25,591 bases of DNA from a virus. The translations under genes were made by a program, and so were the position numbers. Shown in pieces: positions 3,224 through 20,976 of this stretch (within the stretch, counting starts at the first letter, position 1; every line of letters starts with the position of its first letter). The stretch is from IMG/VR virus record IMGVR_UViG_3300025325_000130, positions 1 to 25,591 of that record; one strand, written 5' to 3'. The notes below the pieces were generated by a model that made no database searches, was not told the origin of the DNA, and saw nothing but the letters and a program-made list of their open reading frames with translations.

Positions 3224-3276
3224 GGCCGCTGTCCAGGCTGTGCCCTGGGTGTTTGTCCAGGGCACAGCCTGCGGCC
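3224..3276. ncRNA. 15-bp stem-loop H4 with GTGTTTGT loop
   Basis: CAGGCTGTGCCCTGG (3234-3248) and CCAGGGCACAGCCTG (3257-3271) are perfect complements around GTGTTTGT. Outside a 4-nt bulge, GGCCGC (3224-3229) can pair with GCGGCC (3271-3276), sharing one base with the inner stem. The counterpart in the right gene-free region is 20588-20610, with the loop GTGTTTGTT and a different stem. Confidence 0.5.
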
Positions 3277-3337
3277 TTCCTTACCGGCGTTGAAACGGGC
3301 CGCAGCAGGCGTAGCCGAGTGAGTGGAACGAACGGTA

Positions 3338-3356
3338 GCCCCGTGTTCGTCGGGGC
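3338..3356. ncRNA. Stem-loop H5 with TGTTCGT loop
   Basis: GCCCCG and CGGGGC pair around TGTTCGT. The counterpart is at 20701-20727: same loop, different stem. Nineteen bases after it comes CCCCCCTGAGAGCG (3375-3388), which is also found at 20751-20764. Confidence 0.4.
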
Positions 3357-3374
3357 GTGCGGCGGAGAACCCCG

Positions 3375-3388
3375 CCCCCCTGAGAGCG
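3375..3388. repeat. 14-nt motif shared with 20751-20764
   Basis: CCCCCCTGAGAGCG is identical in both gene-free regions and occupies the same place in the motif order, after the TGTTCGT hairpin and before GGGGGGTGTGCC (3456-3467 and 20798-20809, also identical). Confidence 0.5.
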
Positions 3389-3522
3389 GTTCGACACACC
3401 TTGCTAGACCGCTTAGCGCCCCCGAAGCATGAGGGGAGCGCTGCGGGCTAGGGGTGGGGGGTGTGCCACGCGGCAGGGGGGCGGGGTGGGCCTGCGGAGG
3501 TCCGTCGCCGGTCGGGGGTGCA

Positions 3523-3538
3523 GGGGGGTACTCCCCCC
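3523..3538. other. TACT-loop hairpin, GGGGGG/CCCCCC
   Basis: Six G and six C flank TACT. The same hairpin stands at 20922-20937. Two further TACT-loop hairpins with the stem GGCGCGG/CCGCGCC lie at 3960-3977 and 20948-20965. Confidence 0.5.
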
Positions 3539-3548
3539 GCGATTAATT

Positions 3549-3570
3549 GCGCGGATGGTCTTTTCCGCGC
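3549..3570. other. Stem-loop GCGCGGA/TCCGCGC
   Basis: A 7-bp perfect stem closes the 8-nt loop TGGTCTTT. It lies between the TACT-loop hairpin and the plus-strand terminator-like hairpin at 3590-3609, and has no clear counterpart in the right region. Confidence 0.35.
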
Positions 3571-3589
3571 TTGGCTGTTTTATAGATCT

Positions 3590-3619
3590 GCGCCGGTTTC
3601 ACCCGGCGCTTTGTTGTTT
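3590..3619 (+). terminator. Terminator-like hairpin on the plus strand
   Basis: GCGCCGG and CCGGCGC pair around TTTCAC (3590-3609) and are followed on the plus strand by TTTGTTGTTT. This is a reasonable intrinsic terminator for a plus-strand transcript crossing the left structured element, although no plus-strand gene precedes it. Confidence 0.45.
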
Positions 3620-3643
3620 AGGGGATCGCCCGCGCCTTTGCGC

Positions 3644-3822
3644 GGTTGGAGTTTGCGAGCCATCAGGCGAGCGAACCTGTCAGATGCCGTGTATTGAGCG
3701 TCCGGCATGTGCGAGCGGCCACGCGAGCACGCCGGTTGGAGTTTGCGAGCCATCAGGCGAGCGAACCTGTCAGATGCCGTGTATTGAGTGTCCGGCATGT
3801 GCGAGCGGCCACGCGAGCGCGA
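3644..3822. repeat. Two-copy tandem repeat, 90-bp unit
   Basis: Copies begin at 3644 and 3734 with GGTTGGAGTTTGCGAGCC. They agree at all but one of the first 84 positions (a C/T change in TGAGCGTCC versus TGAGTGTCC) and diverge only at the last bases. Each unit has a small inverted repeat, ATGCCG and CGGCAT. A 90-bp unit keeps reading frames open on both strands, which explains the repetitive open frames seen here. It may be an iteron-like control or replication site, or a recent duplication. Confidence 0.8.
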
Positions 3823-3929
3823 ATACTTGACGGCTTCCACCATCAGCCATGGATCCGGGAAGCCCGCGCGCACGGGTGCGCGTTCGCGCGCTGGCTTTCG
3901 CTGGGAAACGGGATTGCTTTCGGTGTGGT

Positions 3930-3988
3930 GGGGGTTCGGGGGCGCCCCCGGTAGGAAAAGGCGCGGTACTCCGCGCCGCCGAGCCGAC
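3930..3988. repeat. Repeat block A (pair of 20914-20976)
   Basis: It starts GGGGGTTCGGGGG and then has CGGTAG and the TACT-loop hairpin GGCGCGG/CCGCGCC (3960-3977), ending GAGCCGAC. From 3949 to 3988 it matches 20937-20976 at 37 of 40 positions. The two blocks lie in the same orientation on either side of the virion gene module. Confidence 0.75.
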
Positions 3989-3998
3989 CGGCGAAACG

Positions 3999-4027
3999 TT
4001 GTAATATTTATGATATTTATATATAAT
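3999..4027 (+). promoter_or_regulatory. Sigma-70-like promoter, plus strand
   Basis: TTGTAA (3999-4004), a 17-nt spacer and a consensus TATAAT (4022-4027) lie in a short AT-rich island within very GC-rich DNA. No gene follows on the plus strand; 54 nt further on is the hairpin 4081-4110. A transcript would be a short RNA, or the AT island may instead be a melting site. Confidence 0.5.
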
Positions 4028-4070
4028 ATTCATGACTCTCTGGATGCCTTCGTTGGTCGACCCTTGATGC

Positions 4071-4110
4071 AGCCAAAAGAGAAGCCCGTCCATGCCAGTG
4101 GACGGGCTTC
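4071..4110 (-). terminator. Terminator of the late (virion) operon
   Basis: GAAGCCCGTCC (4081-4091) and GGACGGGCTTC (4100-4110) pair around ATGCCAGT. On the minus strand the stem is followed by TCTTTTGG, and it lies about 65 nt after the stop of the tail-protein gene at 4175. It could also stop short plus-strand transcripts from the promoter at 3999-4027. Confidence 0.7.
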
Positions 4111-4174
4111 GTTATGATAGGGGACTCTCTGGAAAGGGGGGCAGGTTGTGATGTCCTGGTGATGCGGGTTTATA

Positions 4175-7027
4175 TCAACCTAAATATCCGGCTTCCTTTA
4201 TTACGACGATCATCGACGCCGCGCCACTGGCTGCCCATTCCGCTGTAATAATATTGCTCGTCAGTTTATATAAAAATTGTCCTGTGTTCCCGCCTGTGCC
4301 TTGCGTATTTAGTTCGACCACGATCTTGCTTGCTCCGTAAGTCTCAAACGGGTGCAGACTCATGCGGTAGTTTTCTCCAGCGGTGTCATATACGACCAAG
4401 AAAAGAAACACACTTGACTTCCCTGTAAAATCCCCGCCTGTGATTTCCAAGTCCACCCACGCCCTACTGCCCCCCGAAACAGTTTGACTGGCGATATCGA
4501 TTGTGTCCCCTACCTGCCATCCAGCCGGGACATTGGCTGTCAGGGTTACGGTGTTGGTGCCTGTCACGCAATTCGAGATAAGCGCACTCGTTCCCCGTGT
4601 TGTGTTATACAATCGCATCTTGGCAAGTTGACTAGTGGACGCGGGGACCATTGCGTTTTCATTTCCACTCGTCACGTTGTAAGTCAATGTTGCTCCGCCT
4701 GGCAGAGTCGCAATTGTTCCGACAAAAGCAGATGAACCGCAAAAAGTGCAACTCCACAGGTCGTTTATATTTACGACTGCGGCAGGTTTTCCTGATAAGG
4801 AACTATAAGCAATCTGCGCGCCGTCTCCTCCGCTGTGGTCGTGGCTGTCGCCGTTCGTGACTAGCCCGGTGTGGGTGTGGGTAGCGGTCGCGCCTTTGTG
4901 CACGTGGTCGCGCCTGGCTCCAAAGATGCTGGTCCCGTCTGCGGCTGCGCCTGCCACGTCTGCCGGATCGCCTTCGGTATCGTCAAATGCGCCTATTTCC
5001 AACTCGTCGACTTTGTCGGCCAGCGCTTGCAAGTTATTGACCGTCTCGTCAAGGTTGCCGTCGAAGTTGGTGGTGACGAGCGGCGTATACGCCGCGACTC
5101 TCTCGATGGTCGAGGGCATGGCTCCGGCGTTGGTGTTGGCAAAGCGTTCGATCAGTTCGATCTCGCAGCGCCAGCCGATGGGGGCTCCGGGGTCCAGGAT
5201 CTCGGTCACGTGGGCCAGGTAGGTGGCGGTTTGACTGGCGTTCACCCGTAGGGTGAAAATGTCTCCGGTCTTGTATTTGAGATGTATCCCGAGAGTGACC
5301 TTGGCGCGGTCGGTGTTGCGCAGGCTGCTGGGCGGCGCGTCTGTGGATTCGAGATAGCCGAGGTTATGGATGATGGATGTATCTTGCCCGGTGGTGTAGA
5401 TGGTGCTGTTTTCATCGCGCCATAGGAAGCTGGCAATCGTGCCGTTTTTGAGCAGGGTTATATCTCCCTGCGTAATGGTGTGGTCGGCTGTGATTGAGAG
5501 CACTCCCGCATGGATGGAGTGCATGACTCCGGTCCCTGCGACGGCTACGAACAAGGATAACTCTGCTGCCCAAATGACGTCTTTATAGGCTTGGTCCTGG
5601 GGTGTGGCCATGGACGTCCAGGTGAAGCCATCGGCGGAGAACATGGACCGGTTGCCTACGCCGGTTTCACAGACGGCCATAAAAAGGGCGAGTTCTCCCG
5701 ACCAGCAAACTGATTTCCAGGTGCGGAGGGCGGCAGCGGTCCGGGCTGTCCAATTGATGCCATCGGGGGAAGTGTAAATATATTGCCCGCCCGATCCGTC
5801 GCCGACCAAAACGAATAATGATAGCTCGGGTGACCAGGTAGAGCCCAACCATCCGCCGATTGCGCTGCGCTGGGTCCAGGTGACGCCGTCCGGGGACGAG
5901 AATATCTTCGATCCTGCGGCAATGAATAACGTAAGTTCCGCTGACCAGATGACAGTATATAGGGCTGCGGCTCCGTGGGTGCGCTGGGTCCAGGTGATGC
6001 CATCCGGGGAAGTTTGAATGTTGGTTGTGCCGCCAACATCTTGCGAGACAGCGACTAGTAAGTTAAGTTCCGGCGAGTAGATCACGTCCCGGATATAGGT
6101 TGCGTTGGCGGGCGTCCGGAGCGTCCAGGTCAGGCCATCGGGGGAGGTGGCGATGGCGTTCGAGCCGACCGAGACGAACAATCCGAGTTCCGCCGCCCAG
6201 CGGACTTTCTCCCACTGCTTATTATTGGCGTCGTCTGCGTCTGTCCAGTTGATCCCGTCTGTGGAAGTGGACGTGAAGCTAGTTAGACCTCCAAGGCCAG
6301 AAACAGATACGAACAGGTTTAGCTCTGGTGAGTAACACAGGCCCACCCCGCCTTTTCCAGCCTGGCCGTTCGCCCAGGTATCCAGGACGACCGGGCTGCC
6401 CAGGTGGTAGAACTGGATCTCGTCTTCGTTGTCGTCATCGCTGTTGTCGACGGCCTGGAGTAGATATTTCTGTCTGATGAGCGGTAATAGGCTGGAACGG
6501 CTTTTGAGTGTGACGGTCTTGCCGGCCGGATAGAAGTTGTAGCCCCAATGGTCGGCATTCCCGAGCGTGGCTTTGAAATCGACCGTGCCGAGTTCGTAAG
6601 CATTGGGATTGAGTGCGGTTAGGACGTTGGTGTAGGTGTCGTCTCCGGCGATGCCTGCCGGGCGTTCGTCGGGGGAGAATAGCGAGAATTGAGCGGTCAC
6701 GATCTGTTTATGGATGGCGTAATCATCGAAGCGCAAGCTTGCGCTCTTGATCCCGTATTGTGTTCCCCCCACGATCACCCCGCGTTCGAGATAGTATTTA
6801 TTCCCTACGATGAGCCCGTCATCGGCGGGCAGGTTCGCCGAGTGGTACTTGACGGTCAGTTCCAGCCCGTCGTATTTGTAATAAAGAATCTGTGTGATGA
6901 GTGTGGTATAGCCCGCGAGCGAAGCGGGCGGGCTGCCGGTGTAATTCCGCCGCCCGATGGCGAAGTAGGGGACAAAGCCGCCCGAATCAAGGGCGGTGGT
7001 AAGTTGGGCGGGCAGCGCGCGCGGCAT
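4175..7027 (-). CDS. Large tail or receptor-binding protein with seven-bladed propeller, 950 aa
   Basis: The N-terminal ~210 residues are probably the virion-attachment part (MPRALPAQLTTALDSGGFVP, then a beta-rich body). From about 225 to 500 there are seven repeats of the form [W/Y]-x-x-EL-x-LFV-x-V, six of them followed by S-x-DG-x-x-WT (SPDGLTWT, SPDGITWT, SPDGVTWT and others). This resembles the Asp-box/BNR and Ycf48-type beta-propeller repeat. The C-terminal 400 residues look like a tail fibre: a helical stretch (ETVNNLQALADKVDELEIG), a His-rich segment near residue 700 (GARRDHVHKG, DSHDHSGGDGAQI) and a terminal beta domain. It is the last gene of the late operon, as usual for host-recognition proteins. 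An AAGGA precedes the ATG by about 12 nt. Propeller identity is good; binding or enzymatic activity is unknown. Confidence 0.8.
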   Translation of the reverse strand: MPRALPAQLTTALDSGGFVPYFAIGRRNYTGSPPASLAGYTTLITQILYYKYDGLELTVKYHSANLPADDGLIVGNKYYLERGVIVGGTQYGIKSASLRFDDYAIHKQIVTAQFSLFSPDERPAGIAGDDTYTNVLTALNPNAYELGTVDFKATLGNADHWGYNFYPAGKTVTLKSRSSLLPLIRQKYLLQAVDNSDDDNEDEIQFYHLGSPVVLDTWANGQAGKGGVGLCYSPELNLFVSVSGLGGLTSFTSTSTDGINWTDADDANNKQWEKVRWAAELGLFVSVGSNAIATSPDGLTWTLRTPANATYIRDVIYSPELNLLVAVSQDVGGTTNIQTSPDGITWTQRTHGAAALYTVIWSAELTLFIAAGSKIFSSPDGVTWTQRSAIGGWLGSTWSPELSLFVLVGDGSGGQYIYTSPDGINWTARTAAALRTWKSVCWSGELALFMAVCETGVGNRSMFSADGFTWTSMATPQDQAYKDVIWAAELSLFVAVAGTGVMHSIHAGVLSITADHTITQGDITLLKNGTIASFLWRDENSTIYTTGQDTSIIHNLGYLESTDAPPSSLRNTDRAKVTLGIHLKYKTGDIFTLRVNASQTATYLAHVTEILDPGAPIGWRCEIELIERFANTNAGAMPSTIERVAAYTPLVTTNFDGNLDETVNNLQALADKVDELEIGAFDDTEGDPADVAGAAADGTSIFGARRDHVHKGATATHTHTGLVTNGDSHDHSGGDGAQIAYSSLSGKPAAVVNINDLWSCTFCGSSAFVGTIATLPGGATLTYNVTSGNENAMVPASTSQLAKMRLYNTTRGTSALISNCVTGTNTVTLTANVPAGWQVGDTIDIASQTVSGGSRAWVDLEITGGDFTGKSSVFLFLVVYDTAGENYRMSLHPFETYGASKIVVELNTQGTGGNTGQFLYKLTSNIITAEWAASGAASMIVVIKEAGYLG

Positions 7028-7067
7028 GGTCTATCCCGTTTCCTTTCTTTTTGTAAATAGAGCGGGG

Positions 7068-7748
7068 CTACAGGTCCTTCAGGCTGCCGGTCTGCCTGCT
7101 GGATGTGAGACGGATATCATTATCGAGCCAGGATGTTTTACGTAGCTCGCTCCTGGGTTCGGGCCTGCGTTCGTAGCGGGCCAGGCCGAAGCGGAAGGCT
7201 TCGAAGAAGCGCGTAGCGGCTTTCTCGTAGTCGGGCGGGGCGGTCTTGGTGAACAGGTTCAAGGCCTCCACCCGGCCAAGTGCGCGGGTGCGGCAAGCAT
7301 AGCCACAGGAGCCATCGACAAGGATCTGGTCTTGATCCGCGTTCATGGTGCTTTCGACTTCCGAGTCTAGCCCGTTGACTGTGTGCCCTTGCGTGAAGCG
7401 AATAAGCAGGTTGCCGTCACTCTCTGCGGTCCGCAAGCGGACCCAGATCCGGTTGTCTTCGAAGATCTTGTCATACTCGAGCGGTTCGTCATCCTCGCCG
7501 GAATCGTCGTTCTTCAGCACGTCGAGCACATCTAGGACTAGCGTTGGAAATGCCCCGCCCGTGAGCTCGTAGGCGAGCAGGCCGCTCGAGACCTCTACGA
7601 TCTCGGCTCCGTTGACCGGCGCGCGCTGGTTGAAATCGCGCAGCGCCTGGCGCACTGCGGCTGTAACGGTTGCTGTTGAAAATAAGGTGCCGTCGTCGAG
7701 GAGTTGGGCCTGGACGCGGGTGATGAGCGTGGTCAGGGAATCGGACAT
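7068..7748 (-). CDS. Probable head-tail connector/adaptor, 226 aa
   Basis: The start MSDSLTTLITRVQAQLLDDG, with helices followed by a DVLKNDD stretch and a C-terminal helical part (EKAATRFFEAFRFGLARYERR), resembles the mostly helical adaptor proteins of phage necks. These often begin with a short helix bundle like AAVRQALRDFNQRAP. Placement among virion genes supports a structural role. AAAGGA lies about 7 nt before the ATG. The family match is by general shape only; it could also be a tail-completion protein. Confidence 0.5.
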   Translation of the reverse strand: MSDSLTTLITRVQAQLLDDGTLFSTATVTAAVRQALRDFNQRAPVNGAEIVEVSSGLLAYELTGGAFPTLVLDVLDVLKNDDSGEDDEPLEYDKIFEDNRIWVRLRTAESDGNLLIRFTQGHTVNGLDSEVESTMNADQDQILVDGSCGYACRTRALGRVEALNLFTKTAPPDYEKAATRFFEAFRFGLARYERRPEPRSELRKTSWLDNDIRLTSSRQTGSLKDL

Positions 7749-7806
7749 GGGGTTCCTTTCTTGATGGGTGGGAGTGAAATTTTCCGGAACATACTATTGA
7801 TCCTTC

Positions 7807-8151
7807 TTACCCGTTCGGTCTGAGCATCCAATTCTCCGGCGTGATGGGCTGCCAGTTCGGGTCAGATGGAGTCTGATACCACGACTGATAAATGTTGAGA
7901 AGGTCGTGTACCTGGAACATAGCCACCGTGAATGCCAACACTGCGAATAAGATCGCCACGCCGATTACCCCGCGACGCACACGCTCGTAATGCGCCCCGC
8001 GCCGTGCCAGCCATAACGCGGGACTGGCGGCCAGGAGCGCCGTCACGATCACCACGCAGAACGAGACATATCCGGCCAAGATGGAGAGTGTGTCTGTCAC
8101 CGGCTCGCTGGCGAGCATGTCCCAAATCCACCAGTAATCGAATAGATTCAT
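7807..8151 (-). CDS. Two-TM membrane protein, holin candidate, 114 aa
   Basis: Two hydrophobic helices are evident, at about residues 19-46 (TDTLSILAGYVSFCVVIVTA and onward) and 62-81 (GVIGVAILFAVLAFTVAMF). A short basic loop (WLARRGAHYERVRR) lies between them and the C-terminus is Trp/Pro-rich. Size and two-helix topology suit a class II holin or another phage membrane protein. No endolysin gene is next to it, so lysis function is inference. The ATG overlaps the stop of the 8148-8459 gene (ATGA). Confidence 0.55.
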   Translation of the reverse strand: MNLFDYWWIWDMLASEPVTDTLSILAGYVSFCVVIVTALLAASPALWLARRGAHYERVRRGVIGVAILFAVLAFTVAMFQVHDLLNIYQSWYQTPSDPNWQPITPENWMLRPNG

Positions 8152-9697: not shown

Positions 9698-9712
9698 AGA
9701 ATGCTCCTTCGA

Positions 9713-9994: not shown

Positions 9995-10034
9995 GGTGGT
10001 ATCTCTCTTTCTGGTGGTGGTGGCCACTATCGGG

Positions 10035-10061: not shown

Positions 10062-10099
10062 TACCGATTAGGGCACGGCGCGGAGGTGGGCGCCGGTGC

Positions 10100-10569: not shown

Positions 10570-11085
10570 CTAGATCCTCAGCGTGTAGTTGGCAACCGCG
10601 CCCAGCAGTTCGATCACGCCGGTATCTCCGGCCTGGTCACAGGTGAGCTCGACCAGAACGTAGACGTCATTGTCGATCCAGAATGGCGTAGTGATGGTGA
10701 GCGTCATCTTGTGCTGGTCCACGTCGACGCGTTCCCCGGCTGCATCGTGCCCGGTGTCGTAGGTGAACGTTTGTGCGGCCACGACTGCCACGGCCCCGTC
10801 CGCGCCGCGTGTGACTTTGTTGACCACGGCGGTTAGGGCGGTGAGTGCGGCTCCGGTCACTTCGAAGTCGATCTCGATGGATTTGAGATAAGCGCCTTGC
10901 TGGGCCACGGAATTGGATGGTATTAGGACCGGGATGTTGATCACACTGGTCTGGTTCGCATCGTTGACCTTTTTGACGATGGTCCCGGCCACTTGTCCGG
11001 CTGCTAGGCTCCATGTGCCGGTGACGCAATGGAACAGGGTCGGCGGAATGTACTGGCTTATGTGGGTATCATGCACGTATCCCAT
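10570..11085 (-). CDS. Probable capsid decoration/minor head protein, copy 2, 171 aa
   Basis: It begins MGYVHDTHISQYIPPTLFHC and is clearly paralogous to the 11093-11599 product. Shared pieces include SQYIPPT, FHCVTGT, IPSNS, GAYLKS, KxTRGADGAVAVVA, DQHK, WIDND and LLGAVANxTLR. The pattern is beta-rich with regular Thr/Val strands. Its place one gene after the capsid gene fits a decoration or cement protein forming trimers or monomers on the shell. TAGGTG precedes the ATG closely, 7 nt after the paralogue's stop. Confidence 0.6.
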   Translation of the reverse strand: MGYVHDTHISQYIPPTLFHCVTGTWSLAAGQVAGTIVKKVNDANQTSVINIPVLIPSNSVAQQGAYLKSIEIDFEVTGAALTALTAVVNKVTRGADGAVAVVAAQTFTYDTGHDAAGERVDVDQHKMTLTITTPFWIDNDVYVLVELTCDQAGDTGVIELLGAVANYTLRI

Positions 11086-11092: not shown

Positions 11093-11599
11093 CTACAGTC
11101 TCAAGGTGAAGTTGGCAACTGCACCCAAGAAGTCGAGCGTAACGACTGCCCCGCAAATGGCGGTGATGACCAGCAGGTACTCGGCGTCATTGTCGATCCA
11201 GACCGGGGTTGTGACGGTCACGGTCAGTTTGTGCTGATCCTGGTCGGCGGCGTCCGTGGCTGCGGCCAGGTCCTGGGTGACCGGCACGTCTGCCACGACG
11301 GCTACGGCCCCGTCTGCGCCGCGCGTGATTTTGTTCATGGTTGCGGTGATGGATGTGGCTGCGGCAAGCAGGCACTCATAATCCACTTCTACGGACTTGA
11401 GATAAGCGCCTTGCAGGCCTTGTGAATTGGACGGCAGCACGATCGGGATGTTGATCACGCCGGTCGACGCAGCTGCGGCGCGGTGCTTGGCGATGGTCCC
11501 GGCCACGGCTCCGGCTGCGTCGGTGTAGGTCCCGGTCACGCAATGGAAAGCGGTCGGGGGGATGTACTGGCTCATGTGGGTGTTATGTACGTATCCCAT
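11093..11599 (-). CDS. Probable capsid decoration/minor head protein, copy 1, 168 aa
   Basis: The product begins MGYVHNTHMSQYIPPTAFHC. Length and strand pattern match the downstream paralogue throughout; the middle region (residues 25-45 and 105-120) differs most. A strong SD (AAGGAG, 8 nt from the ATG) and the position directly after the major capsid gene suggest high expression, as for decoration proteins. Two strong hairpins separate it from the capsid gene. Tandem duplication with divergence could give two surface proteins with different external faces. The decoration role is inferred from position. Confidence 0.65.
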   Translation of the reverse strand: MGYVHNTHMSQYIPPTAFHCVTGTYTDAAGAVAGTIAKHRAAAASTGVINIPIVLPSNSQGLQGAYLKSVEVDYECLLAAATSITATMNKITRGADGAVAVVADVPVTQDLAAATDAADQDQHKLTVTVTTPVWIDNDAEYLLVITAICGAVVTLDFLGAVANFTLRL

Positions 11600-11696: not shown

Positions 11697-13928
11697 TTAG
11701 CCTGCGACGTTGTTCTTATGCAAGCCGCGGTAGTTGGACACGCCGACCGCCAGGAACTGGCGGACCTTCAGGCGGCTCTCGTCGTTCATGAACATGGCCG
11801 GATCGTTCTCCCGGCCAGCCATGAAGATCTGCGGCTTTTCGCCGAAGATCTCGGCTACGTGCAGGCAGGGCAGGATCTTGGGGTCTGCCACGGCTGCCCA
11901 GTCGGTGGCGTCGGTCCATTCGGGCACGACCAACGGCTTGACTTTGCCCATGAAAGTCCGTCCACCTGCTGAAGGGATGGCTTCCACGTCCGAAGCCCAG
12001 CGGCCAACGAACAGGGAATCGGCCTGGTTCGCCAGGTCGATGGGGACTAAGGCAAAGGCCGGGCGCACGCCCTGGCGCTTGCCGGTGCCGAGGTAGCTGG
12101 TGCCTTCGATGGTGGCGGCCACGTGCATAGGCTGTTTGAACATGGCTTTGTCTACGGCTGCCCAGGCGGTGTAATCGGTGCCCAGTGCCGTGGTCAGCAG
12201 GTTGAGATGGCCGCCCGGTGTTGCGATGGCGGTGGAGTTGAACAGCGCGCCGCCGTCTGCCAGGTTTGGGCCTACGGCGCTATTGTTGGTGAAGATGGCT
12301 GCCACCTGCTCCGAGATGTTGCGCATTCCGGCGAGCGCAAGCTCGCGCGGGAACTGCTTGAAGGCTTGCAGGTTGTCGCGCAGGATCGCTTCCAGCGTGA
12401 GTGGCACGTACCCGCCGTACTTGGTCCAGTCGGATGTCTCGACGTTGTCGCCGATGGGCAGGATTGGATACTCGCCGCGTTCTGAGATGGTGGGCAGGCT
12501 GCCGATCGTGCCGGTGATGACCCAGTCGATCTGGTTCAGGTCGGTGAAATGCTCGACCGTAACGATCTCTCTCCACCAGCCGTAACCGGCTTCCCCGTAC
12601 TGCTTCCACGCCTGGACCAGGATCTTATTCATCGAGTCCTTGACGATGGCGGGAAAGTTGGTGGTGGTGGCCAGCCCGGCCATGATCAGGTCGTAATCGA
12701 CGTTGCCGGTAAACTCGCGGTCGCCGGTGAGCATCAGATATAGATCGCGTATGCCGTTGAGCCGGGCAACTTTCAACCCCTCGGTGCCGGGGTCGCGCTC
12801 TGCGCCTAGCAGGTCATAGGCTGCCGCGCGGATCTGGTCGTCGGAATTGAACATTTGCCCGGTGCGTCCGGGGCCGGAGACGGCCAGCCGGTTGGAGACC
12901 GCGGCGATTTCGACTCGTGCTTCTTCGATCGCGCTATGCAGTTCGTTGGCCTTGAACTTGCGGCCTTTGAACTGGCGTTCGATGCGGGCTATGGTGGGGG
13001 CTGGCAGGCGGCAATTGGAGAGCGCCGATTGCAGCAGGTTGTCACAGGTGGCGATGAGAATCTGTTCGGATTCTTCCGCCTGTGCTTCGAGCGCGGCGAT
13101 GCGCTCGGTCTCGCCAAGTAATTCGGCGGCGGCTGCGCGGTTGGCGCGGATGAGCGAGCCCAGTTCCTGGGCTTCTTGCACGGTGGCGGGTTGGTTGGAC
13201 GCGACCGCGCCCGTTTGGGTGGTGCTTTCGTTCGGGTCCATGTGTACTCCTTTCAGTACAGGGGTGGGTTTGGACGCGTTGCCGTTTTGAGACGACCCCG
13301 CGTTGGATTGATCATCCCCGCCAGAGGCGGGATTGATTTCGGATTTATGTGCTGCGAGCGCAGCGAGAAGCGTGGTCCCTTCGGAAGCCGGGACAACGAC
13401 CGCGGCGGTGTGGCGGCCTGAGGGATTGACGAAAATCGGGTGCATGACTTCCATTTTGCCGTTGACTTCGTACTTCCGGCCTGGCCAATGGGTACAGGCT
13501 GGACTCAGAAAATCATTGTTGCAGATCGAGCAGCGGATCATGTCATAGAACCACGAGATAGAGAAGCGACGTACCTTGCCTTCCAGATAGGCGGTCATGG
13601 CTTCGCGGGTGGTCAGGCGGATGGTGTGTTTGAACAGACTGCCGTCGAGCCATGATCCTTGGATGGATCCAAAGAGCGCGTCCAGGTTCTCACGATGGTC
13701 TTTGACGAATGCCTGCCCTTGGAAGCTTTCGGCGAACTTCTTCCAGTCGGCTTCGAACCAATAGCCGTTGCGGTTGTCTTTGTCCCATTGGAAGACCGCT
13801 GCGTCGAACTCGATGAATTCCAGTTCGCCGCTCTCGATCTTGGCGAGTGTTTCGGCGCGGTTGGTGATGGTCAACTCGGCCACGTAGGCCGGGCTGTACA
13901 TGATGGGAAGGGTGGTTTTTACTGGCAT
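11697..13928 (-). CDS. Fused prohead protease-scaffold-major capsid protein, 743 aa
   Basis: Residues ~1-190 look like an HK97-type (herpesvirus-fold) prohead protease, with the His in FVKDHREN near residue 76 and the Ser in RFSISWF near 122. Straight after the Ser motif is a Cys knuckle, CSICNNDFLSPACTHWPG. Residues ~235-345 are Ala/Glu/Gln-rich and helical (RAAAAELLGETERIAALEAQ), the expected scaffold (delta) domain. From ~350 to 743 is a capsid protein (SMNKILVQAWKQYG, VPLTLEAILRDNLQAFKQ, GVRPAFALVPIDLANQ, FGEKPQIFMAGRENDP). All are in one frame with no stop or frameshift. Proteolytic release of the mature capsid protein is expected. AGGAG lies 6 nt before the ATG. It follows the portal cluster, the usual order. 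Confidence 0.85.
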   Translation of the reverse strand: MPVKTTLPIMYSPAYVAELTITNRAETLAKIESGELEFIEFDAAVFQWDKDNRNGYWFEADWKKFAESFQGQAFVKDHRENLDALFGSIQGSWLDGSLFKHTIRLTTREAMTAYLEGKVRRFSISWFYDMIRCSICNNDFLSPACTHWPGRKYEVNGKMEVMHPIFVNPSGRHTAAVVVPASEGTTLLAALAAHKSEINPASGGDDQSNAGSSQNGNASKPTPVLKGVHMDPNESTTQTGAVASNQPATVQEAQELGSLIRANRAAAAELLGETERIAALEAQAEESEQILIATCDNLLQSALSNCRLPAPTIARIERQFKGRKFKANELHSAIEEARVEIAAVSNRLAVSGPGRTGQMFNSDDQIRAAAYDLLGAERDPGTEGLKVARLNGIRDLYLMLTGDREFTGNVDYDLIMAGLATTTNFPAIVKDSMNKILVQAWKQYGEAGYGWWREIVTVEHFTDLNQIDWVITGTIGSLPTISERGEYPILPIGDNVETSDWTKYGGYVPLTLEAILRDNLQAFKQFPRELALAGMRNISEQVAAIFTNNSAVGPNLADGGALFNSTAIATPGGHLNLLTTALGTDYTAWAAVDKAMFKQPMHVAATIEGTSYLGTGKRQGVRPAFALVPIDLANQADSLFVGRWASDVEAIPSAGGRTFMGKVKPLVVPEWTDATDWAAVADPKILPCLHVAEIFGEKPQIFMAGRENDPAMFMNDESRLKVRQFLAVGVSNYRGLHKNNVAG

Positions 13929-15210: not shown

Positions 15211-15565
15211 GGAAGATGCCTTTGATGATGTTAAGCGTGCGGCGCAGGCCGCTCGTTGTGTAACCGTCAGGCGCGAGCGCATATCGAGCGCGGGAGCCGG
15301 TGGGGTCTTCCAGGATGAAGTAAGGCACGGGTTCGACCGGCTCCGGGGTGGGTGGTGGTTCCGGCTCGGTGTCGGGGTCGACCGGTTGCAGGTAGAACGT
15401 GCGGACCCACTTCCCGCGCCATGGGTTGGGGTCAGTCCCGGCGATCTGCGACCACTCCCCTGAAGTACCGACAATTTCGACGATAGTGCCGGCGGGGATA
15501 GTGTCGCGCTTGGTCTCGCCGGGTTGCAGGTAATAAGGGCAGGTGAAGGTAACGCGGTAACTCAT
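15203..15565 (-). CDS. SH3b-like domain protein, 120 aa
   Basis: Residues 1-60 look like a bacterial SH3 domain: YLQPGETKRDTIPAGTIVEI, then GTSGEWSQIAG and the closing strand GKWVRTFYLQPV. A Pro/Glu linker (DTEPEPPPTPEPVEPVP) and a short C-terminal helix follow. There is no signal peptide, unlike the SH3b lipoprotein at 23421-23816. In virions such domains can bind cell wall or act as interaction modules. GGAGG precedes the ATG, which overlaps the portal stop (ATGA). Confidence 0.7.
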   Translation of the reverse strand: MSYRVTFTCPYYLQPGETKRDTIPAGTIVEIVGTSGEWSQIAGTDPNPWRGKWVRTFYLQPVDPDTEPEPPPTPEPVEPVPYFILEDPTGSRARYALAPDGYTTSGLRRTLNIIKGIFRA

Positions 15566-16977
15566 TCATCCTCCGTTGTGCTGGTGTCTGTGGGTTCGCC
15601 GGGCTCGGTTTCTTCGCTCACGCCTTCCGGCTGCTGCACCTTGCGCCGCACGCCCTTGGGCTGCGGGCCGTCCGTGTCGTAGTCCTTGCCCAGCATCTCG
15701 TAGAACAGAAGTAAGTAAGTGGGCTCGTCGATTAACTCCCGGTCGAACAGGTCGGCCAGGACCGGCTCGATCCGGGCGGCGGCCAGGGCCAGCGTGGAAT
15801 TGTCGCGCTCGGTCACGTCATCGGCGCGCACGGCGATACCGGCCGCCTGTAAGCGTTTCTTGGTGAAGTGGATCTTCTTGACGACTGCGATGGTGCACAG
15901 GGTAGCCAGCGCGCGCTTGAAACTGTTCTGGCGCATCTTGAACTTGCGGAAGGTGGGTGTTCCGGCTGCTTCGGCTGTGGTGCGGGTAGAGCTCTCCGGT
16001 TCGGCCAGGTAGTGAAGTGGTAGCCCGATGCCTGCGGCAATGTGCTTTTTGATGGCAAGGATGTCCATGTTGGCGTCGAAGCTCTGTAAGTTGGGGCTGA
16101 GTGTGCCCCATACTTCCGTGTCGTCGTTCACGACGATGGAACCTGGTTGCGGTGGGTTGGCGTTGAGTTCGGCTTCGCGCTGTTTGCGGGTTCTGGTGTC
16201 GGTGAATTTGCCCTTCACGATGTACACGATCAGGTTGCGCAGGTGGTTCATGATGACCCGGTCGTTGAGCAGGGTTGAGAGCCTGCCCAGCCATTTGAGT
16301 ACGGGCGTCAGGTCGGCTTCGCCGAAGGTGCAGCCGACCGGCCGGTTGATCGGGAAGTGCAGCATGAACTGGGTCTGCTCGGGGTCGAGGGGATCGTAGG
16401 CCACGTAAGGCGGCGCGTTCAGGTCCTGCTGGATGTAGGCTGTTTCCTGGCGGTAGTCGTTGTTGAAGGTCTGGATTTCGTTGATCTGCTCGGACGGCAC
16501 GGCGCGGACAAATAGACTCCCGTCATTGGCGTCTACACTGCACAGTAAAAACAGGTCGCCGGATCGGGATTGTTCGGCTACCCATTCGGGGACCTGCTCG
16601 TCCAGGTTGTTGAGCGGGTGCTCCCAAAACTCTTTGACTGCTGCCGCTGTGGGCTTGTGCTTGATGTCCGGGGCCATGCCGTCGCCGACCACGAATTCGA
16701 CAATGGCGTCGGTGATACGCCGCGCGATGGGATTGGTGCGCCAGGCAAGCAGCGTCTCGGCGATGATCGTTGCCCGGTCGTAGTTCATCCGGTCGCGGAA
16801 GATGTCCCGGCCGCTGCGCGTGCCGATGATGATGGTATCGTCAGTTTCGGCCATGGTCGACAGCCGCGCGGCGACCCGGTCTTCGACCGCCCGGTCGATG
16901 GCCGCGCGGAATGGGTTGCGGACGCGTGCCCCATGAATACGGGGTACGCGGATTTCTCTGCCGAAGATTTTTGCCAT
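15562..16977 (-). CDS. Portal protein, 471 aa
   Basis: Portal-family hallmarks are visible: a helical N-terminal wing (YDRATIIAETLLAWRTNPIA RRITDA), the G-D/GM region (VEFVVGDGMAPDIKHKP) and a WVAEQSRSGDLFL strand. The stem region reads LLNDRVIMNHLRNLIVYIVK, and the C-terminal part has AAGIGLPLHYLAEPESSTRT, then helices and an acidic disordered tail. Length is normal for the family. The portal ring is the packaging motor's docking site at one capsid vertex. AAGGAG and a TAATG overlap set the start. It lies two genes after TerL, with an extra structural protein between. Confidence 0.85.
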   Translation of the reverse strand: MAKIFGREIRVPRIHGARVRNPFRAAIDRAVEDRVAARLSTMAETDDTIIIGTRSGRDIFRDRMNYDRATIIAETLLAWRTNPIARRITDAIVEFVVGDGMAPDIKHKPTAAAVKEFWEHPLNNLDEQVPEWVAEQSRSGDLFLLCSVDANDGSLFVRAVPSEQINEIQTFNNDYRQETAYIQQDLNAPPYVAYDPLDPEQTQFMLHFPINRPVGCTFGEADLTPVLKWLGRLSTLLNDRVIMNHLRNLIVYIVKGKFTDTRTRKQREAELNANPPQPGSIVVNDDTEVWGTLSPNLQSFDANMDILAIKKHIAAGIGLPLHYLAEPESSTRTTAEAAGTPTFRKFKMRQNSFKRALATLCTIAVVKKIHFTKKRLQAAGIAVRADDVTERDNSTLALAAARIEPVLADLFDRELIDEPTYLLLFYEMLGKDYDTDGPQPKGVRRKVQQPEGVSEETEPGEPTDTSTTEDE

Positions 16978-18098
16978 TAGATAAGCTCCTTCCAGGACAG
17001 GCTTGCATTGACTTCGCTATTGACGGCGCTTTGAGCGGTGATGAGCAGGGCTTCGCCTGGTGGTATTTCGAAGGTTTCGGGTAGGGACAAAATACCGTTA
17101 TCGGCTTTGGCCGCTTCGATAGCCAGCCAGAGCTTTTGACTGGCCGGTGTGGGTGTGCCGGTGTACTTCTTGGCGATGGAGGTATTGGTGTCGATGGCGG
17201 CGGATGTCCCGCCTGAGATCGTGCAGCGATAGATTCGGAATGTGACCGGCTTCGCGCCTTCTGTGCTGTAAGTAAAGTGGGTGAACTTGATCTGTGAGCG
17301 GTTGTTCCCGGTCCCGCCGAATACGTCGGTCATGTTCTCGACTGCCAGCACAATCGTTTCGGCTGTGGCGGTGTAGGCCAGGTTATGTTGTGTGGCGTGG
17401 CGCGGGCCTGGCTTTTCCAGTTGTCCGAATGCGTAGGCCGCCATGTTGCCGATGGTCACGACGATGGCGCTGGTGTTGCCGCTATTCGAGACAGCGGCGC
17501 GCAGTGGTAGTGATGGGTTGAGGATGGATGGTACGGTGAACTGGTTGGGATAGCGGATGACGTGCGCTTCCTCGAACAGGCCGGTATGCCGGTTTTCGAT
17601 CTGGAAGGAAATCACCCCGGCTCCCAGCCATTGGAAGGAGATGGCGTAGATGTTGTACTTGGACGGCTCGAACTCGAAGGATAATTGCTTGTTCCAGTCG
17701 GCCTGGCTGACCCAGTTGTCGATCACTTCCCCGCTGACAGAACTGCGGCGGTTGATTCCGAACTCAACGCCGTTGTAACCAAAGAAGTATCCGTCTTCTG
17801 CGTTTCCGTAGCCTGCTTCTTGCAGGCTACCGGTTTTACCTGGGGAAAAGACGGCGGAGAATTTGACGATGATCCCCTGCCCGCTGATGTAATGGACCAG
17901 TTGGCGCGAGTGGAGTTGTGCGGAGCCGTTCGTCTCCGTGCCGGTGGAAAGGATCGCCGTGCTGCCGCTTTGGGCGATGGTTCCATTGTTGGCTACGGTG
18001 GACCTGGCCAGTTCGGTATTGATATTGTAGTGAAAGGCCATGTAAGCCAGCAGGCTTTTTGCGGTTACTTGTAACTCTCCGAACGGTGCGAAGTGCAT
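16977..18098 (-). CDS. Beta-rich structural protein between TerL and portal, 373 aa
   Basis: I use the ATG at 18098, which overlaps the TerL stop as TAATG. The product (MHFAPFGELQVTAKSLLAYM...) is rich in Ser/Thr/Gly strands. Typical stretches are SGQGIIVKFSAVFSPGKTGS, AEDGYFFGYNGVEFGINRRS, NIYAISFQWLGAGVISFQIE and VTFRIYRCTISGGTSAA. It looks like a jelly-roll virion protein of the fibre or base type. No enzyme motif is seen. Its location between terminase and portal is unusual, since fibres normally sit at the distal end of the module. Function inferred as structural. Confidence 0.65.
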   Translation of the reverse strand: MHFAPFGELQVTAKSLLAYMAFHYNINTELARSTVANNGTIAQSGSTAILSTGTETNGSAQLHSRQLVHYISGQGIIVKFSAVFSPGKTGSLQEAGYGNAEDGYFFGYNGVEFGINRRSSVSGEVIDNWVSQADWNKQLSFEFEPSKYNIYAISFQWLGAGVISFQIENRHTGLFEEAHVIRYPNQFTVPSILNPSLPLRAAVSNSGNTSAIVVTIGNMAAYAFGQLEKPGPRHATQHNLAYTATAETIVLAVENMTDVFGGTGNNRSQIKFTHFTYSTEGAKPVTFRIYRCTISGGTSAAIDTNTSIAKKYTGTPTPASQKLWLAIEAAKADNGILSLPETFEIPPGEALLITAQSAVNSEVNASLSWKELI

Positions 18099-19594
18099 TA
18101 GTAACCTCCGTCGATCTCGCGTTGCATGTCCCGCTGAAGGATGGTGGACTCCTGCGTGATGTACCATTCCAGCCGGTCAAGGACCGCGACCTGCGCGTCG
18201 GCGGTGACGAAGTCATCGTGGATCAGTTCGCCGGTGTCGTCGTCGCGCGTACCATCAGGCACGGACCAGCGCAGGGTTTTGGCCGGGCCGGGTAGGATCT
18301 CACTCTTGATGTGGCTGTACTGCTTGTCCACGGCTGGGGATGGGTCGCAGTCGCGGAAGCGCCCGGTCTCGATCACGGCTATGTATCCATAGCCGATCTC
18401 GCTCTTTGTGGCCTGGGTGTACTTGACCGGGATGACTTTCCCCGGGAACTTGTGGTCCAGCATCGCCCAGAGTCCCTCCCCCACCCCGGTGGCGTCGATC
18501 ACAAAGTACAGCGGTCGCCAACTCTCTCCGAGCGCGGATAGTTTTCCGAACATCTTGACGTGGTTCTCTCCGGTCCATGCCTGGCGGCGGACCGCCCGGT
18601 AGGTGGGGAAGCCTAGCAATTGAAGCGATGAAAGGTCGATGTCTATGACCGTGAGCGTGAGCGAGTCACGGCTGGCGTTTGCCAGCGGCGCGTCTTCGTC
18701 CAGGTTCATGCGCGCTTCGTCCTGCCCGGCCACGTCGATGAGAAAAGCGTAAGCGTGACCAGGGACAGGCACGTCAGTGCCTGGCTGGTCACCGACCATG
18801 AGTGCTCGCCGGGCGGCGTTGAACATGCCGGTGGTCGCGTCGATCTCCTCGTTGAAGTATTGCGTTTTGATGAGCGGGTGTTGTCTTCCTAAGCGCTTTA
18901 CTTCGCCGTCCACGAACTTGCCATAGGCCGGGTTATGTTTGCGGACTTCGTCTGCGTCGTAGACGAAGACGCGCCGGATGCCGTCCGCAGCCTGGGCAGC
19001 TTCGGCTGCCCGGCGTTCGCGGGATAAGAGACTCCCGGATGTCCAGACCGTGCCCACGATGACTCTCGTGGCGTTCGTGCTGGCGGCCATGGGGCTGGCC
19101 TTTTTGTCGTAAACGATTGGCGAGATGTCCTGGGCTTCGTTGACGATTAGTAGGAGCGACGCAGTCGCGCCTACTACGTTGGCCTTGCCGTCGCCGGATA
19201 GGAACGATGTGCGCGCCTGGCCGATCATGCGCATGAAGTCCGAGCGCTTCTTCCAGCGGTTGCGCGTCAGGATATTGGTCTGAAGCCTGCTCTCGAGCCG
19301 TAGGATGGCGCGGATGGTCTGGGGTTTGTACGTGGGATTGAATTCGACGATCTCGGTGTCCTTGTGTTGCAAGCGGTGCATGAGGAATAGCTTGAGATGG
19401 CAAAGGAATTCGTCTTTGCCGGACTGCCTGGAAATGATGACCACGATGGTCAGGCCGAGATTGTGTTTAACTGAATTCCAGATCGCGTCTATCGGCTCGA
19501 CCTGGTACGGGCGGAGCTCCATTCCCCCGCCGTGCAGGCTGAAGCGGTAGGGCGTGCGTTGGATGGTCTTGGCGCGCTGCGTGAGAGTGGACAC
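18098..19594 (-). CDS. terL: Terminase large subunit (packaging ATPase-nuclease), 498 aa
   Basis: The ATPase domain has a Walker A-like loop, ISRQSGKDEF near residue 55, of the SRQ-x-GK-x-E type. The Walker B-like strand is LLLIVNEAQDI near 150, with Asn where many relatives have Asp, then a coupling motif (VIVGTVWTSGSLLSR). The nuclease domain (RNase H-like) shows three acidic positions: AFLIDVAGQDE, FVIDATGVGEG and HDDFVTADAQV. The start is GTG at 19594, forming TAGTG with the TerS stop. The enzyme cuts concatemers and drives DNA into the prohead together with TerS and the portal. Length fits the family. Confidence 0.88.
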   Translation of the reverse strand: MSTLTQRAKTIQRTPYRFSLHGGGMELRPYQVEPIDAIWNSVKHNLGLTIVVIISRQSGKDEFLCHLKLFLMHRLQHKDTEIVEFNPTYKPQTIRAILRLESRLQTNILTRNRWKKRSDFMRMIGQARTSFLSGDGKANVVGATASLLLIVNEAQDISPIVYDKKASPMAASTNATRVIVGTVWTSGSLLSRERRAAEAAQAADGIRRVFVYDADEVRKHNPAYGKFVDGEVKRLGRQHPLIKTQYFNEEIDATTGMFNAARRALMVGDQPGTDVPVPGHAYAFLIDVAGQDEARMNLDEDAPLANASRDSLTLTVIDIDLSSLQLLGFPTYRAVRRQAWTGENHVKMFGKLSALGESWRPLYFVIDATGVGEGLWAMLDHKFPGKVIPVKYTQATKSEIGYGYIAVIETGRFRDCDPSPAVDKQYSHIKSEILPGPAKTLRWSVPDGTRDDDTGELIHDDFVTADAQVAVLDRLEWYITQESTILQRDMQREIDGGY

Positions 19595-19959
19595 TAGAGT
19601 CCTTCCTCTGCGTTGAGTTCTGCTAAGGCGTCCATGATGGCCTGTTCGACCGGCTGGTACTGGCCGGTGATGATCTGCTGGGCGCGGGTCAGAGTGCCGA
19701 TGCTGGCCAGGGCGATGACCAGGGTATTGATCGCGCCGATGGTGGCGTTATTCATGTCGCCTTCTTTGCCTTCTTCGAGTCCGCTCTTTGCCAGTCGTTC
19801 CAGGATCCGGTCGGCGATGACGCGCAAGGCGTTGATCTCGCCTTGCAGCCCGCTGTCCCTGAGCGCCTTGCGTTTAAAGCGGCTGATCTCGTCGTCGGTG
19901 AAGTGCCTGGCATAGAAGCCGTGTTTGAGCGCGTTGCGGTTGCCTTTGGGTGCGGGCAT
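19594..19959 (-). CDS. terS: Terminase small subunit, 121 aa
   Basis: The N-terminus MPAPKGNRNALKHGFYARHF has the GN-x-NA...HGFY signature common in one group of phage small terminase and DNA-binding proteins. A basic helical part (DEISRFKRKALRDSG) and long helices (LQGEINALRVIADRILERLA, IGAINTLVIALASIGTLTRA) follow, as expected for an oligomerising recognition subunit. It lies directly upstream of TerL with a TAGTG overlap. The ATG at 19959 has no clear SD but is 5 nt beyond the upstream stop, so it may be coupled. Confidence 0.75.
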   Translation of the reverse strand: MPAPKGNRNALKHGFYARHFTDDEISRFKRKALRDSGLQGEINALRVIADRILERLAKSGLEEGKEGDMNNATIGAINTLVIALASIGTLTRAQQIITGQYQPVEQAIMDALAELNAEEGL

Positions 19960-19963
19960 GGGA

Positions 19964-20296
19964 TCATGGTTTGTTCAAGTCGCCGGTGTCGCGACGTTTG
20001 ATTCTGGCTTCGCGGCTGGCGGCATCATGGGCGGATAGTAGGCCGTTGAGTTGGTTGACCTGTTGGGCTATGGATTTGATTTCTTCGGCCAGCCTGCCGA
20101 TGGCTTCGACTCGATGGGCGCGTTCTTCTCGTAAGAATTCCCTCCATTGCTCGTCACGTTTGTCTTGGAATTCCCTCCACAAATCTTCGTGTTTGTTGGC
20201 GTTGGCGTCGATCCGTTTCGACCATTCCAGGATAAACCAGACGAAGATTCCGACGATTGGTAGTTGAATGAGTAAGTTGATTACACTATCTGGCAT
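19964..20296 (-). CDS. Single-TM coiled-coil protein, first gene of the late operon, 110 aa
   Basis: One membrane helix lies at residues 7-23 (NLLIQLPIVGIFVWFILEWS). A highly charged coiled coil follows (EDLWREFQDKRDEQWREFL, AIGRLAEEIKSIAQQVNQLN) and a basic tail (SREARIKRRDTGDLNKP). The layout resembles BhlA/UviB-type small holin-like phage proteins, but such proteins are poorly diagnosed by sequence. AGGAGAG, 2-3 nt before the ATG at 20296, is a strong SD. Being first after two tandem terminators makes it the reporter of how late transcription starts. Confidence 0.65.
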   Translation of the reverse strand: MPDSVINLLIQLPIVGIFVWFILEWSKRIDANANKHEDLWREFQDKRDEQWREFLREERAHRVEAIGRLAEEIKSIAQQVNQLNGLLSAHDAASREARIKRRDTGDLNKP

Positions 20297-20328
20297 GACT
20301 CTCCTGGGTAGTGCCCGCCGTCGCGGGA

Positions 20329-20353
20329 TAAAAAACAGCCGGCTGTCGGCTGT
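20329..20353 (-). terminator. Intrinsic terminator just before the late operon
   Basis: On the minus strand ACAGCCG and CGGCTGT pair around a 5-nt loop (20335-20353), followed at once by TTTTTTAT. This is a textbook intrinsic terminator. It ends only about 33 nt before the ATG at 20296. Confidence 0.75.
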
Positions 20354-20365
20354 GACCCGCTCCCC

Positions 20366-20407
20366 TTAAAAAGCGGCTAGACTCGTTGGGGGGAGCGAGT
20401 CTAGCCG
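20366..20407 (-). terminator. Second terminator-like hairpin, 12-bp stem
   Basis: CGGCTAGACTCG (20374-20385) and CGAGTCTAGCCG (20396-20407) are perfect complements. On the minus strand CTTTTTAAGG follows. Together with 20329-20353 it would block read-through from the right-hand operon unless antitermination occurs. Confidence 0.75.
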
Positions 20408-20508
20408 AAGGTATTTTGGCACATATGTTCGGGGTCGTCAATGTAGGTGCGCAAGAGTGGGACTAAAGCGTCACGAATGTTCGACCGTCCTGCAATGGTC
20501 CTGTAATA

Positions 20509-20543
20509 CACACGCCCGCGTTCGTGGCGGGGGCGGGCGTGTG
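20509..20543. ncRNA. 11-bp stem-loop
   Basis: CACACGCCCGC and GCGGGCGTGTG pair around the 13-nt loop GTTCGTGGCGGGG. An alternative inner hairpin CCCGC/GCGGG around GTTCGTG would resemble the TGTTCGT-loop hairpins elsewhere. Confidence 0.4.
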
Positions 20544-20587
20544 CTCGAACGGGAGCGGCGGGGGTTGGCCGCCGCTGTGAGAGCCTG

Positions 20588-20610
20588 CCCCGGCGTGTTT
20601 GTTGCCGGGG
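20588..20610. ncRNA. Stem-loop H6 with GTGTTTGTT loop
   Basis: CCCCGGC and GCCGGGG pair around GTGTTTGTT. The loop matches that of the 15-bp hairpin at 3234-3271, while the stem differs. It is the first of the motifs conserved in order between the two gene-free regions. Confidence 0.45.
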
Positions 20611-20632
20611 GGCTGAGCGATAGCGAAGAATC

Positions 20633-20659
20633 ACCCCGCACAGTTCCACCGTGCGGGGT
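20633..20659. ncRNA. Stem-loop with AGTTCCACC loop, copy 1
   Basis: ACCCCGCAC and GTGCGGGGT (9 bp) close the loop AGTTCCACC. A second copy at 20875-20899 has the loop AGTTCTACC and a stem with one compensatory C-G to T-A change. Confidence 0.5.
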
Positions 20660-20700
20660 CTGCGCGGCCTGCCAATGGGCGGCCTGGGCGACTGAGCGTA

Positions 20701-20727
20701 GGCTGACGCCGTGTTCGTCGGCCAGCC
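20701..20727. ncRNA. Stem-loop H7 with TGTTCGT loop
   Basis: GGCTG, a 2-nt bulge and GCCG pair with CGGC-CAGCC around TGTTCGT. Loop identical to that of 3338-3356, stem different. Confidence 0.4.
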
Positions 20728-20874
20728 GGAGGGAAGGTAGCCAGCCGAAGCCCCCCTGAGAGCGCCCGCCCCCCACTTCGAAAATGGGTACATTGCTGGG
20801 GGGTGTGCCTGGGTGGGGGGTGTGGGGGGCGGGGCGGCAGGGGGGACTGAGGGAAGGCGCACCATTGGCGTAGG

Positions 20875-20899
20875 TCCCGCATAGTTCTACCGTGCGGGA
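20875..20899 (+). ncRNA. Stem-loop with AGTTCTACC loop, copy 2
   Basis: TCCCGCA pairs with TGCGGGA, and a further T-G pair closes the 9-nt loop AGTTCTACC. The T.G closing pair is stable only in RNA read from the plus strand (U.G); the other strand would have A.C. This favours a plus-strand transcript. Confidence 0.45.
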
Positions 20900-20913
20900 T
20901 CGTGGCCGCGCAT

Positions 20914-20976
20914 GGGGGTTCGGGGGGTACTCCCCCCGGTAGCAGAAGGCGCGGTACTCCGCGCCGCGGAGCCGAC
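20914..20976. repeat. Repeat block B (pair of 3930-3988)
   Basis: It contains GGGGGTTC, a GGGGGG/CCCCCC hairpin with TACT loop (20922-20937), CGGTAG and the GGCGCGG/CCGCGCC hairpin with TACT loop (20948-20965), and ends GAGCCGAC. Same orientation as block A, 37 of 40 identical over 20937-20976. Confidence 0.75.

Follow-up and report, generated by a model that had tools for sequence, protein, structure and literature searches.

Several kinds of structured leaders and intergenic repeats have been described in phages and their hosts. The SAS and ESAS elements of cluster K mycobacteriophages are phage intergenic repeats described in 2011, when their function was not known, and ESAS consist of inverted repeats with a variable spacer (PMC3203893). 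The put sites of phage HK022 bring about protein-free antitermination via the zinc-binding domain of the RNA polymerase beta' subunit; putL starts at about +3 after its promoter, spans ~70 nt and contains two stem-loops (PMC9378689). Other points of comparison are the leader pseudoknot of T4 gene 32 (PMC535899), the GOLLD and ROOL RNAs (PMC12286853) and the GTAG and CGTC families of REP elements (PMC3733652). Here we describe two gene-free regions of a 25.6 kb tailed-phage fragment, stored as virus record IMGVR_UViG_3300025325_000130 and analysed over its whole length of 25,591 nt (the window, W). Region 1 (2754-4174) and region 2 (20297-21434) are built from hairpins with fixed loops and free stems that lie predominantly on the minus strand, which carries all phage genes of W in the open reading frame (ORF) map.

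One unit of this kit, the AGTA double hairpin (hereafter the module), consists of the string CGGCTCC, hairpin A, about nine bases, hairpin B and the string GAACCC. Like SAS/ESAS, it has many copies per phage, lies mostly in one orientation between genes, just before translation starts, and has a host that is likely without it. However, SAS is one fixed string of 13 bp and the arms of ESAS follow a consensus, whereas W-type modules combine free stems with a fixed loop and fixed flanks, each unit has two hairpins, and the copies lie among structural genes in phages of Anaerolineae; the 13-bp SAS string GGGATAGGAGCCC was not seen in the aligned modules, where the conserved strings are CGGCTCC and GAACCC. 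HK022 putL and putR resemble the late leader of region 2 in having ~70 nt, a place directly behind a promoter, a stem a few bases from +1 and paired stem-loops that head a long operon; the late leader, unlike put, interleaves two helices, and the likeness is one of place and size. The T4 gene 32 pseudoknot is likewise a fold in a phage mRNA leader upstream of the ribosome-binding site, but it has ~28 nt, serves one gene and nucleates gp32 binding, whereas the late leader has ~50 nt, stands at a likely transcript start and precedes the packaging operon. GOLLD and ROOL are, like the W regions, large and structured, noncoding and phage-borne. The initial annotation of W, made from the letters alone, had recognised neither of them, and rightly so, because a Rfam search of W and its relatives found no family match; in addition, the W regions have no tRNA neighbours and a modular, variable layout. 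Finally, REP elements share with the W-type hairpins short intergenic palindromes with a fixed tag and free stems, yet they occur in both orientations on host chromosomes, whereas the W-type hairpins are phage-borne, on one strand and with fixed loops. Instead of a GTAG or CGTC foot tag and a high host copy number, we found a CGGCTCC foot and weak matches in only 2 of 249 Anaerolineae genomes; absence from the host class is thus likely but not proven, because the search filters were strict and few candidates were scored. As far as these tools show, the elements belong to a known kind (structured RNA and intergenic phage repeats), and their modular free-stem, fixed-loop build and promoter-linked leader are new within the collections searched.

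The initial annotation had read the two regions on the plus strand as diverged copies of one structured element, with five motifs in the same order and with conserved loops on stems that differ yet pair. We checked the five motif pairs and all stand at the coordinates given, in identical order. Chained identical bases between 3200-3560 and 20560-20960 amount to 103, 88 and 72 for 7-, 8- and 9-mers, compared with shuffle maxima of 69, 50 and 30; none of 300 dinucleotide shuffles reached the observed values, and 2000 dinucleotide shuffles of region 1 contained one of the five strings each at most. Also, identical loops sit on unrelated stems in four related genomes. The functional strand, however, is not the plus strand but the minus, gene strand, where the TACT loops are AGTA loops and the loops read ACAAACAC, ACGAACA and AGTA. 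For the counts on the two strands we used W together with three sets of contigs whose terminase large subunit (TerL) is ~85% identical to that of W, namely G1 (L011/L029), G2 (L020/L030/L031) and G3 (L023/L032/L033). Among these there are 15 ACRARCA hairpins on the gene strand and 1 on the opposite strand (0.73 in shuffles); for AGTA hairpins the counts are 13 and 2 (0.03 in shuffles). The string ACRARCA occurs in noncoding regions 26 times in sense and twice in antisense, and loops related to CAGAAATA occur 10-14 times in sense and never in antisense across 84 phage loci. Given this bias, recognition must see one strand, that is, RNA or a single DNA strand.

The stems themselves carry matched changes. 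In 12 copies of the double hairpin, 10 of the 14 pairs are altered on both sides with 93% of cells paired, which none of 500 shuffles equalled; its covariation is 0.394, compared with 0.15 in shuffled and at most 0.10 in slid controls, the latter having 2-4 both-sided pairs. In 11 ACRARCA hairpins with seven-base loops, stem positions 2-5 carry two pair types each, with 12 both-sided changes, and 3 of 2000 shuffles scored as high. Since this set was picked as hairpins, the strand and shuffle counts in W and G1-G3 are the unbiased test. That the hairpins pair is well supported by these comparisons. With free stems, fixed loops and matched changes, the RNA fold is therefore the selected trait. 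The initial annotation had left open a structured RNA or a DNA element read by loop or shape; the RNA side is much favoured by the compensatory changes, the strand asymmetry, sense promoters kept in relatives, and region-wide fold z-scores of -7 and -10, while the notion of one structured element gives way to a kit of hairpin families. The feature it pointed to is real and its interpretation mainly right, but on the opposite strand.

The reading that we tentatively prefer is that both regions give rise, on the minus strand, to leader RNAs that are noncoding, structured and built of modules; these would head the early (region 1) and late (region 2) operons and control them in cis through the nascent RNA. 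We infer that both regions are transcribed. Each leader would be assembled from hairpin families with fixed loops (ACRARCA, AGTA, AAAGAACAAGAGC and others), with stems that are free to vary if they pair, and control of long operons in cis by nascent RNA would be the most likely mechanism. We further infer that a single shared factor, either RNA polymerase or an RNA-binding protein, docks on these loops, which stay fixed on stems that are free; Pfam recognised no RNA-binding protein among ten other W genes.

Region 2 lies between the early genes and the late (terminase, portal, capsid and tail) operon, and homologous regions with indels that are not in threes lie upstream of terS in L011, L020 and L023. 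By sequence it has two sense promoters, both kept in L023. P1, at its upstream end (21345-21317), is sigma-70-like with an extended -10 (TTGCCA-17-TAAGAT), and its place is kept in L023 (TTGCCA-17-TACACT) and likewise in the L011/L020 alignment. P2, the late promoter (20441-20413), reads TTGACG-17-CAAAAT, with TTGACA-17-AAAAAT in relatives. Directly past P2 stands a hairpin, S1 (20374-20407), with a T-rich tail, and the bases behind this tail are complementary to the S1 loop; the second helix so formed, S2, joins CGCTCCCC (20390-20397) with GGGGAGCG (20358-20365), with a U-rich linker. The predicted late mRNA would thus carry interleaved hairpins at its 5' end (20358-20407), as a pseudoknot or a switch. 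The interleaved pattern (S1 and S2 both at least 8) was found at 19 gene-strand sites and at none on the opposite strand, compared with 1, 0, 0 and 0 in four shuffles of 1.17 Mb. For most of the sites the distance upstream of TerL is between a few hundred and 1900 bases, and their stems are for the most part unrelated in sequence; 3-4 of the 19 are situated elsewhere and could be chance matches. MAFFT misaligned this leader. A promoter that matches at 9 or more of 12 positions is found no more than 60 nt upstream of 65% of 23 hand-listed interleaved sites, compared with 1.9% of random places, and because its -10 mostly ends 4-10 bases ahead of S1, the late transcript probably starts with the interleaved hairpins. 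Between the leader and the first late ORF stands an intrinsic-terminator-like hairpin with a T run (ACAGCCGACAGCCGGCTGT, 20329-20353), and such a hairpin occupies the same place in G1-G3 and L010. The late transcript would then start at or a few bases from S1/S2 and meet this terminator ahead of the first late gene, the leader perhaps acting by put-like antitermination.

Several observations weigh against leaders that act in this way. In most relatives the leader is not followed by a terminator, and by this argument antitermination is not required there. S1 with its T run is itself terminator-like and the 3' arm of S2 lies behind it; as S2 is made after the T run of S1, it is no classical cis antiterminator of S1, and a role while bound to polymerase, or after transcription, agrees better with this order. 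If the stems are full-length, the linkers seem too short to allow a classical H-type pseudoknot, and a switch between alternative pairings is equally possible. No strong sense promoter was seen in region 1 of W. At one AGTA slot, L011 and L020 have the inverse (TACT) loop. Finally, two copies of the module are apparently inside reading frames, one at the N-terminus of the terminase small subunit (TerS) in L092 (9402-9484) and one in the proline-rich linker of a lipoprotein in L090 (5112-5189); these resemble Rickettsia palindromic elements and fit tolerance or mobility as well as regulation.

Region 2 could also be taken, from P1 to the terminator, as one large noncoding RNA that stands by itself, like GOLLD and ROOL, with region 1 a shorter paralogue; in a large particle of such RNA the loops would kiss one another or contact proteins. 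Its length of ~970 nt, its fold (z -10.4), its limits (a promoter where it starts, a terminator where it ends), and its high conservation in G1-G3 with many conserved loops are what such an RNA would have. We nevertheless consider this unlikely: the antisense strand folds nearly equally well (z -9.3), a second conserved promoter lies inside the region, relatives differ by large insertions and hairpin swaps, the overall architecture is shown conserved in four genomes at most, and to the missing Rfam match is added that no tRNA genes were found in W or 12 relatives.

The two regions are modular, and not the two copies of one colinear element that the initial annotation had proposed, since hairpins have been swapped, added and tandemly repeated. 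Their longest shared block has 64 nt at ~87% identity (E 3e-16) and joins 20913-20976 with 3929-3988; the AGTA hairpin at 20922-20937, which had been matched with 3523-3538, belongs to this block instead. An exact search of viral contigs for the block (GGCGCGGTACTCCGCGCCGCNGAGCCGAC) gave no further record, and blastn of region 2 against phage and plasmid records gave no match. A profile made from region 1 of four genomes also matches region 2 of L023 (E 2e-4). Across relatives, one slot may hold an AGTA hairpin, ACGAGCAC, GGTGGAACT or an unrelated hairpin, and region 1 is highly variable in length, with tandem repeats. In W it contains an 89-nt tandem duplication (98%; 3643-3731 and 3733-3821), a unit that is partly found also in region 2 of L011 and L020. 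A G1 contig ends in a tandem array with a 67-nt unit, and in L033 and L032, which are one contig, region 1 is split across both ends and would measure ~4.4 kb if the genome closes, compared with 1.4 kb in W.

The module has one copy in each region of W, at 20909-20985 in region 2 (hairpin A 20948-20965 and hairpin B 20921-20938, both with AGTA loops, and GAACCCCC; covariance model 69 bits, E 7e-17) and at 3925-3997 in region 1 (hairpin A 3960-3977, loop AGTA; 57.8 bits, E 1e-13). Covariance-model matches were also found in L021, L071-L073, L077, L080, L081, L084, L090, L092, L097 and others, with up to six copies per phage, and the stronger matches lie on the TerL strand. A pattern spanning the linker matched one record only, because stems vary, and a model from a wider module alignment was not used, since differing stem lengths cost it hairpin A. 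Recurrent sites are the TerS-TerL junction, the position ahead of the capsid gene and that ahead of a 226-aa gene, and the module often occupies the gap from a stop codon to the ribosome-binding site of the next gene (in L071, TerL ends at 5805, the module spans 5808-5889 and the next gene starts at 5899). Inside late operons the module may have a local effect on how the polycistronic mRNA is processed or translated, or on how stable it is. It is at these junctions that mobile or recombinogenic DNA has to be weighed, of the REP, mitochondrial double-hairpin or Rickettsia palindromic type, with a strand bias that would come from insertion into the lagging-strand template under unidirectional replication. 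Several copies per phage, presence or absence at one and the same TerS-TerL junction, the in-frame copies of L090 and L092, the exchange of hairpin types at one slot and the tandem copies in region 1 all suit mobility, as does a copy in L084 (8035-8153) that is flanked by a 17-nt direct repeat (AAAGGAAAACCAAGATA); this repeat is like a target-site duplication and is missing from other copies. Target-site duplication is not general, however, the mean longest shared flank being 6.7 nt compared with 5.9 nt at random; the module recurs ahead of the capsid gene with differing stems in L084, L090, L097, L077 and L112; and it is nearly absent from Anaerolineae genomes. From these data, with transposases covered within the gene families of W, we regard mobility as an improbable explanation.

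Less probable again is that the elements act as DNA, as a replication origin, a cos or pac packaging site by terS, or operators, with cruciforms or single-stranded hairpins bound by phage proteins. The position of region 2 by the terminase genes and the long, palindrome-rich sequence of both regions would suit such a role; against it, the loops are biased to a single strand, interleaved hairpins stand directly behind promoters, and dispersed copies lie ahead of ribosome-binding sites. A short protein-coding gene within region 2, as a conserved 38-nt block and protein-like frames in W, L011 and L023 (such as LRSVAQAAHWQAAQ) might suggest, is scarcely credible: indels are mostly of one base (modulo 3: 18 zero, 63 one, 13 two), on which grounds we rejected coding potential, every genome has frame ends or shifts of its own, and third codon positions are conserved equally.

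The remaining hairpins of the proposed leaders are as follows, all on the minus strand. In region 2, two weak hairpins of the CAGAAATA-loop family, found by eye, lie at 20982-21001 and 21010-21027. A long-range hairpin core (20751-20845) pairs CCCCCCTG (20838-20845) with CAGGGGGG (20751-20758) and, in an inner helix, 20766-20778 with 20822-20835, and contains GGCACACCCCCC at 20798-20809. The ACGAACA-loop hairpin (20701-20727) shows matched outer-stem changes in relatives (GGCTG/CAGCC, AGGTG/CACCT and GAAATTG/CAATTTC). A GGTGGAACT-loop hairpin stands at 20633-20659, with a second copy at 20875-20899 and other hairpins in its slot in relatives, and an AACAAACAC-loop hairpin stands at 20588-20610, with an identical loop on the stem GCGACGGGTG/CACCCGTCGC in L023.

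Region 1 is bounded by the last tail gene on one side and by a conserved ORF of 176 aa on the other; like region 2, it is larger than the gene-free extent initially given. An AGTA-loop hairpin, GGGGGG-AGTA-CCCCCC, is at 3523-3538. It is followed in the direction of the gene strand by a long hairpin core in three tiers (3369-3487; fold z -6.0), namely ACCCCGCCCCCCTG/CAGGGGGGCGGGGT, GGCACAC/GTGTGTC and a variable inner stem. This architecture of three stacked helices is found also in L032 (z -5.8) and the distant L021 (z -2.9), with differing inner stems. Covariation on the MAFFT alignment was seen in 2 of 40 pairs, the inner stems not being alignable, and we assessed the core by single-sequence folds instead. 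Further on are the hairpin GCCCCG-ACGAACA-CGGGGC (3338-3356), a 15-bp hairpin with the ACAAACAC loop (3234-3271) and a AAAGAACAAGAGC-loop hairpin (3043-3069) with a second copy on another stem (2851-2877); the AAAGAACAAGAGC loop occurs on three different stems. At the contig end of L107 (1-78) we noted a near-perfect hairpin of ~29 bp that is related to the core's inner stem (TCTAGCAAGGTGTG); after it, an AGTA hairpin takes the slot where W has ACGAACA.

Among the genes of W are those for TerS (19594-19959), TerL (18098-19594), portal (15562-16977) and a protease/major capsid protein (11697-13928), all on the minus strand. The long gene at 4175-7027 (minus strand) has no family match and its tail role is taken from its position; it encodes repeated 'SPDGITWT' blades, and its identity to the counterpart in near relatives is about one third, unlike that of the adjoining genes. 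The 176-aa ORF (2223-2753, minus strand), the first gene past region 1, has an N-terminus (FGGSRNLP...GCQFGADQ) with a SLOG/Rossmann-type look by eye and no Pfam match above cut-off. Behind the capsid gene, genes of 171 and 168 aa (10570-11085 and 11093-11599) are tandem duplicates, a duplication found also in L084, L092 and L127. An exact 38-nt repeat (TTGAGTGATTTTAGGTAGG...) at 1-38 and 718-755 reaches the very end of the contig and is possibly an assembly-end artefact or a duplicated ORF end.

Relatives of TerL occur in other viral contigs and in genome bins of Anaerolineae/Chloroflexi, so the host is most likely an anaerolinean. Somewhat more tentative than our reading of the two regions as leader RNAs is its extension to the phage family, in which an undescribed RNA code of leaders and junction modules, with fixed loops on free stems, would control the operons and have RNA polymerase or one common RNA-binding factor as its reader, and the late transcript would start inside the interleaved-hairpin leader. 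The double hairpin, the ACRARCA hairpin and the interleaved hairpins of the late leader add three candidate RNA families without a Rfam match, from phages of uncultured Anaerolineae. Their placement at likely transcript starts and ahead of ribosome-binding sites gives them a directly testable role, and they appear to represent an undescribed layer of phage RNA control.

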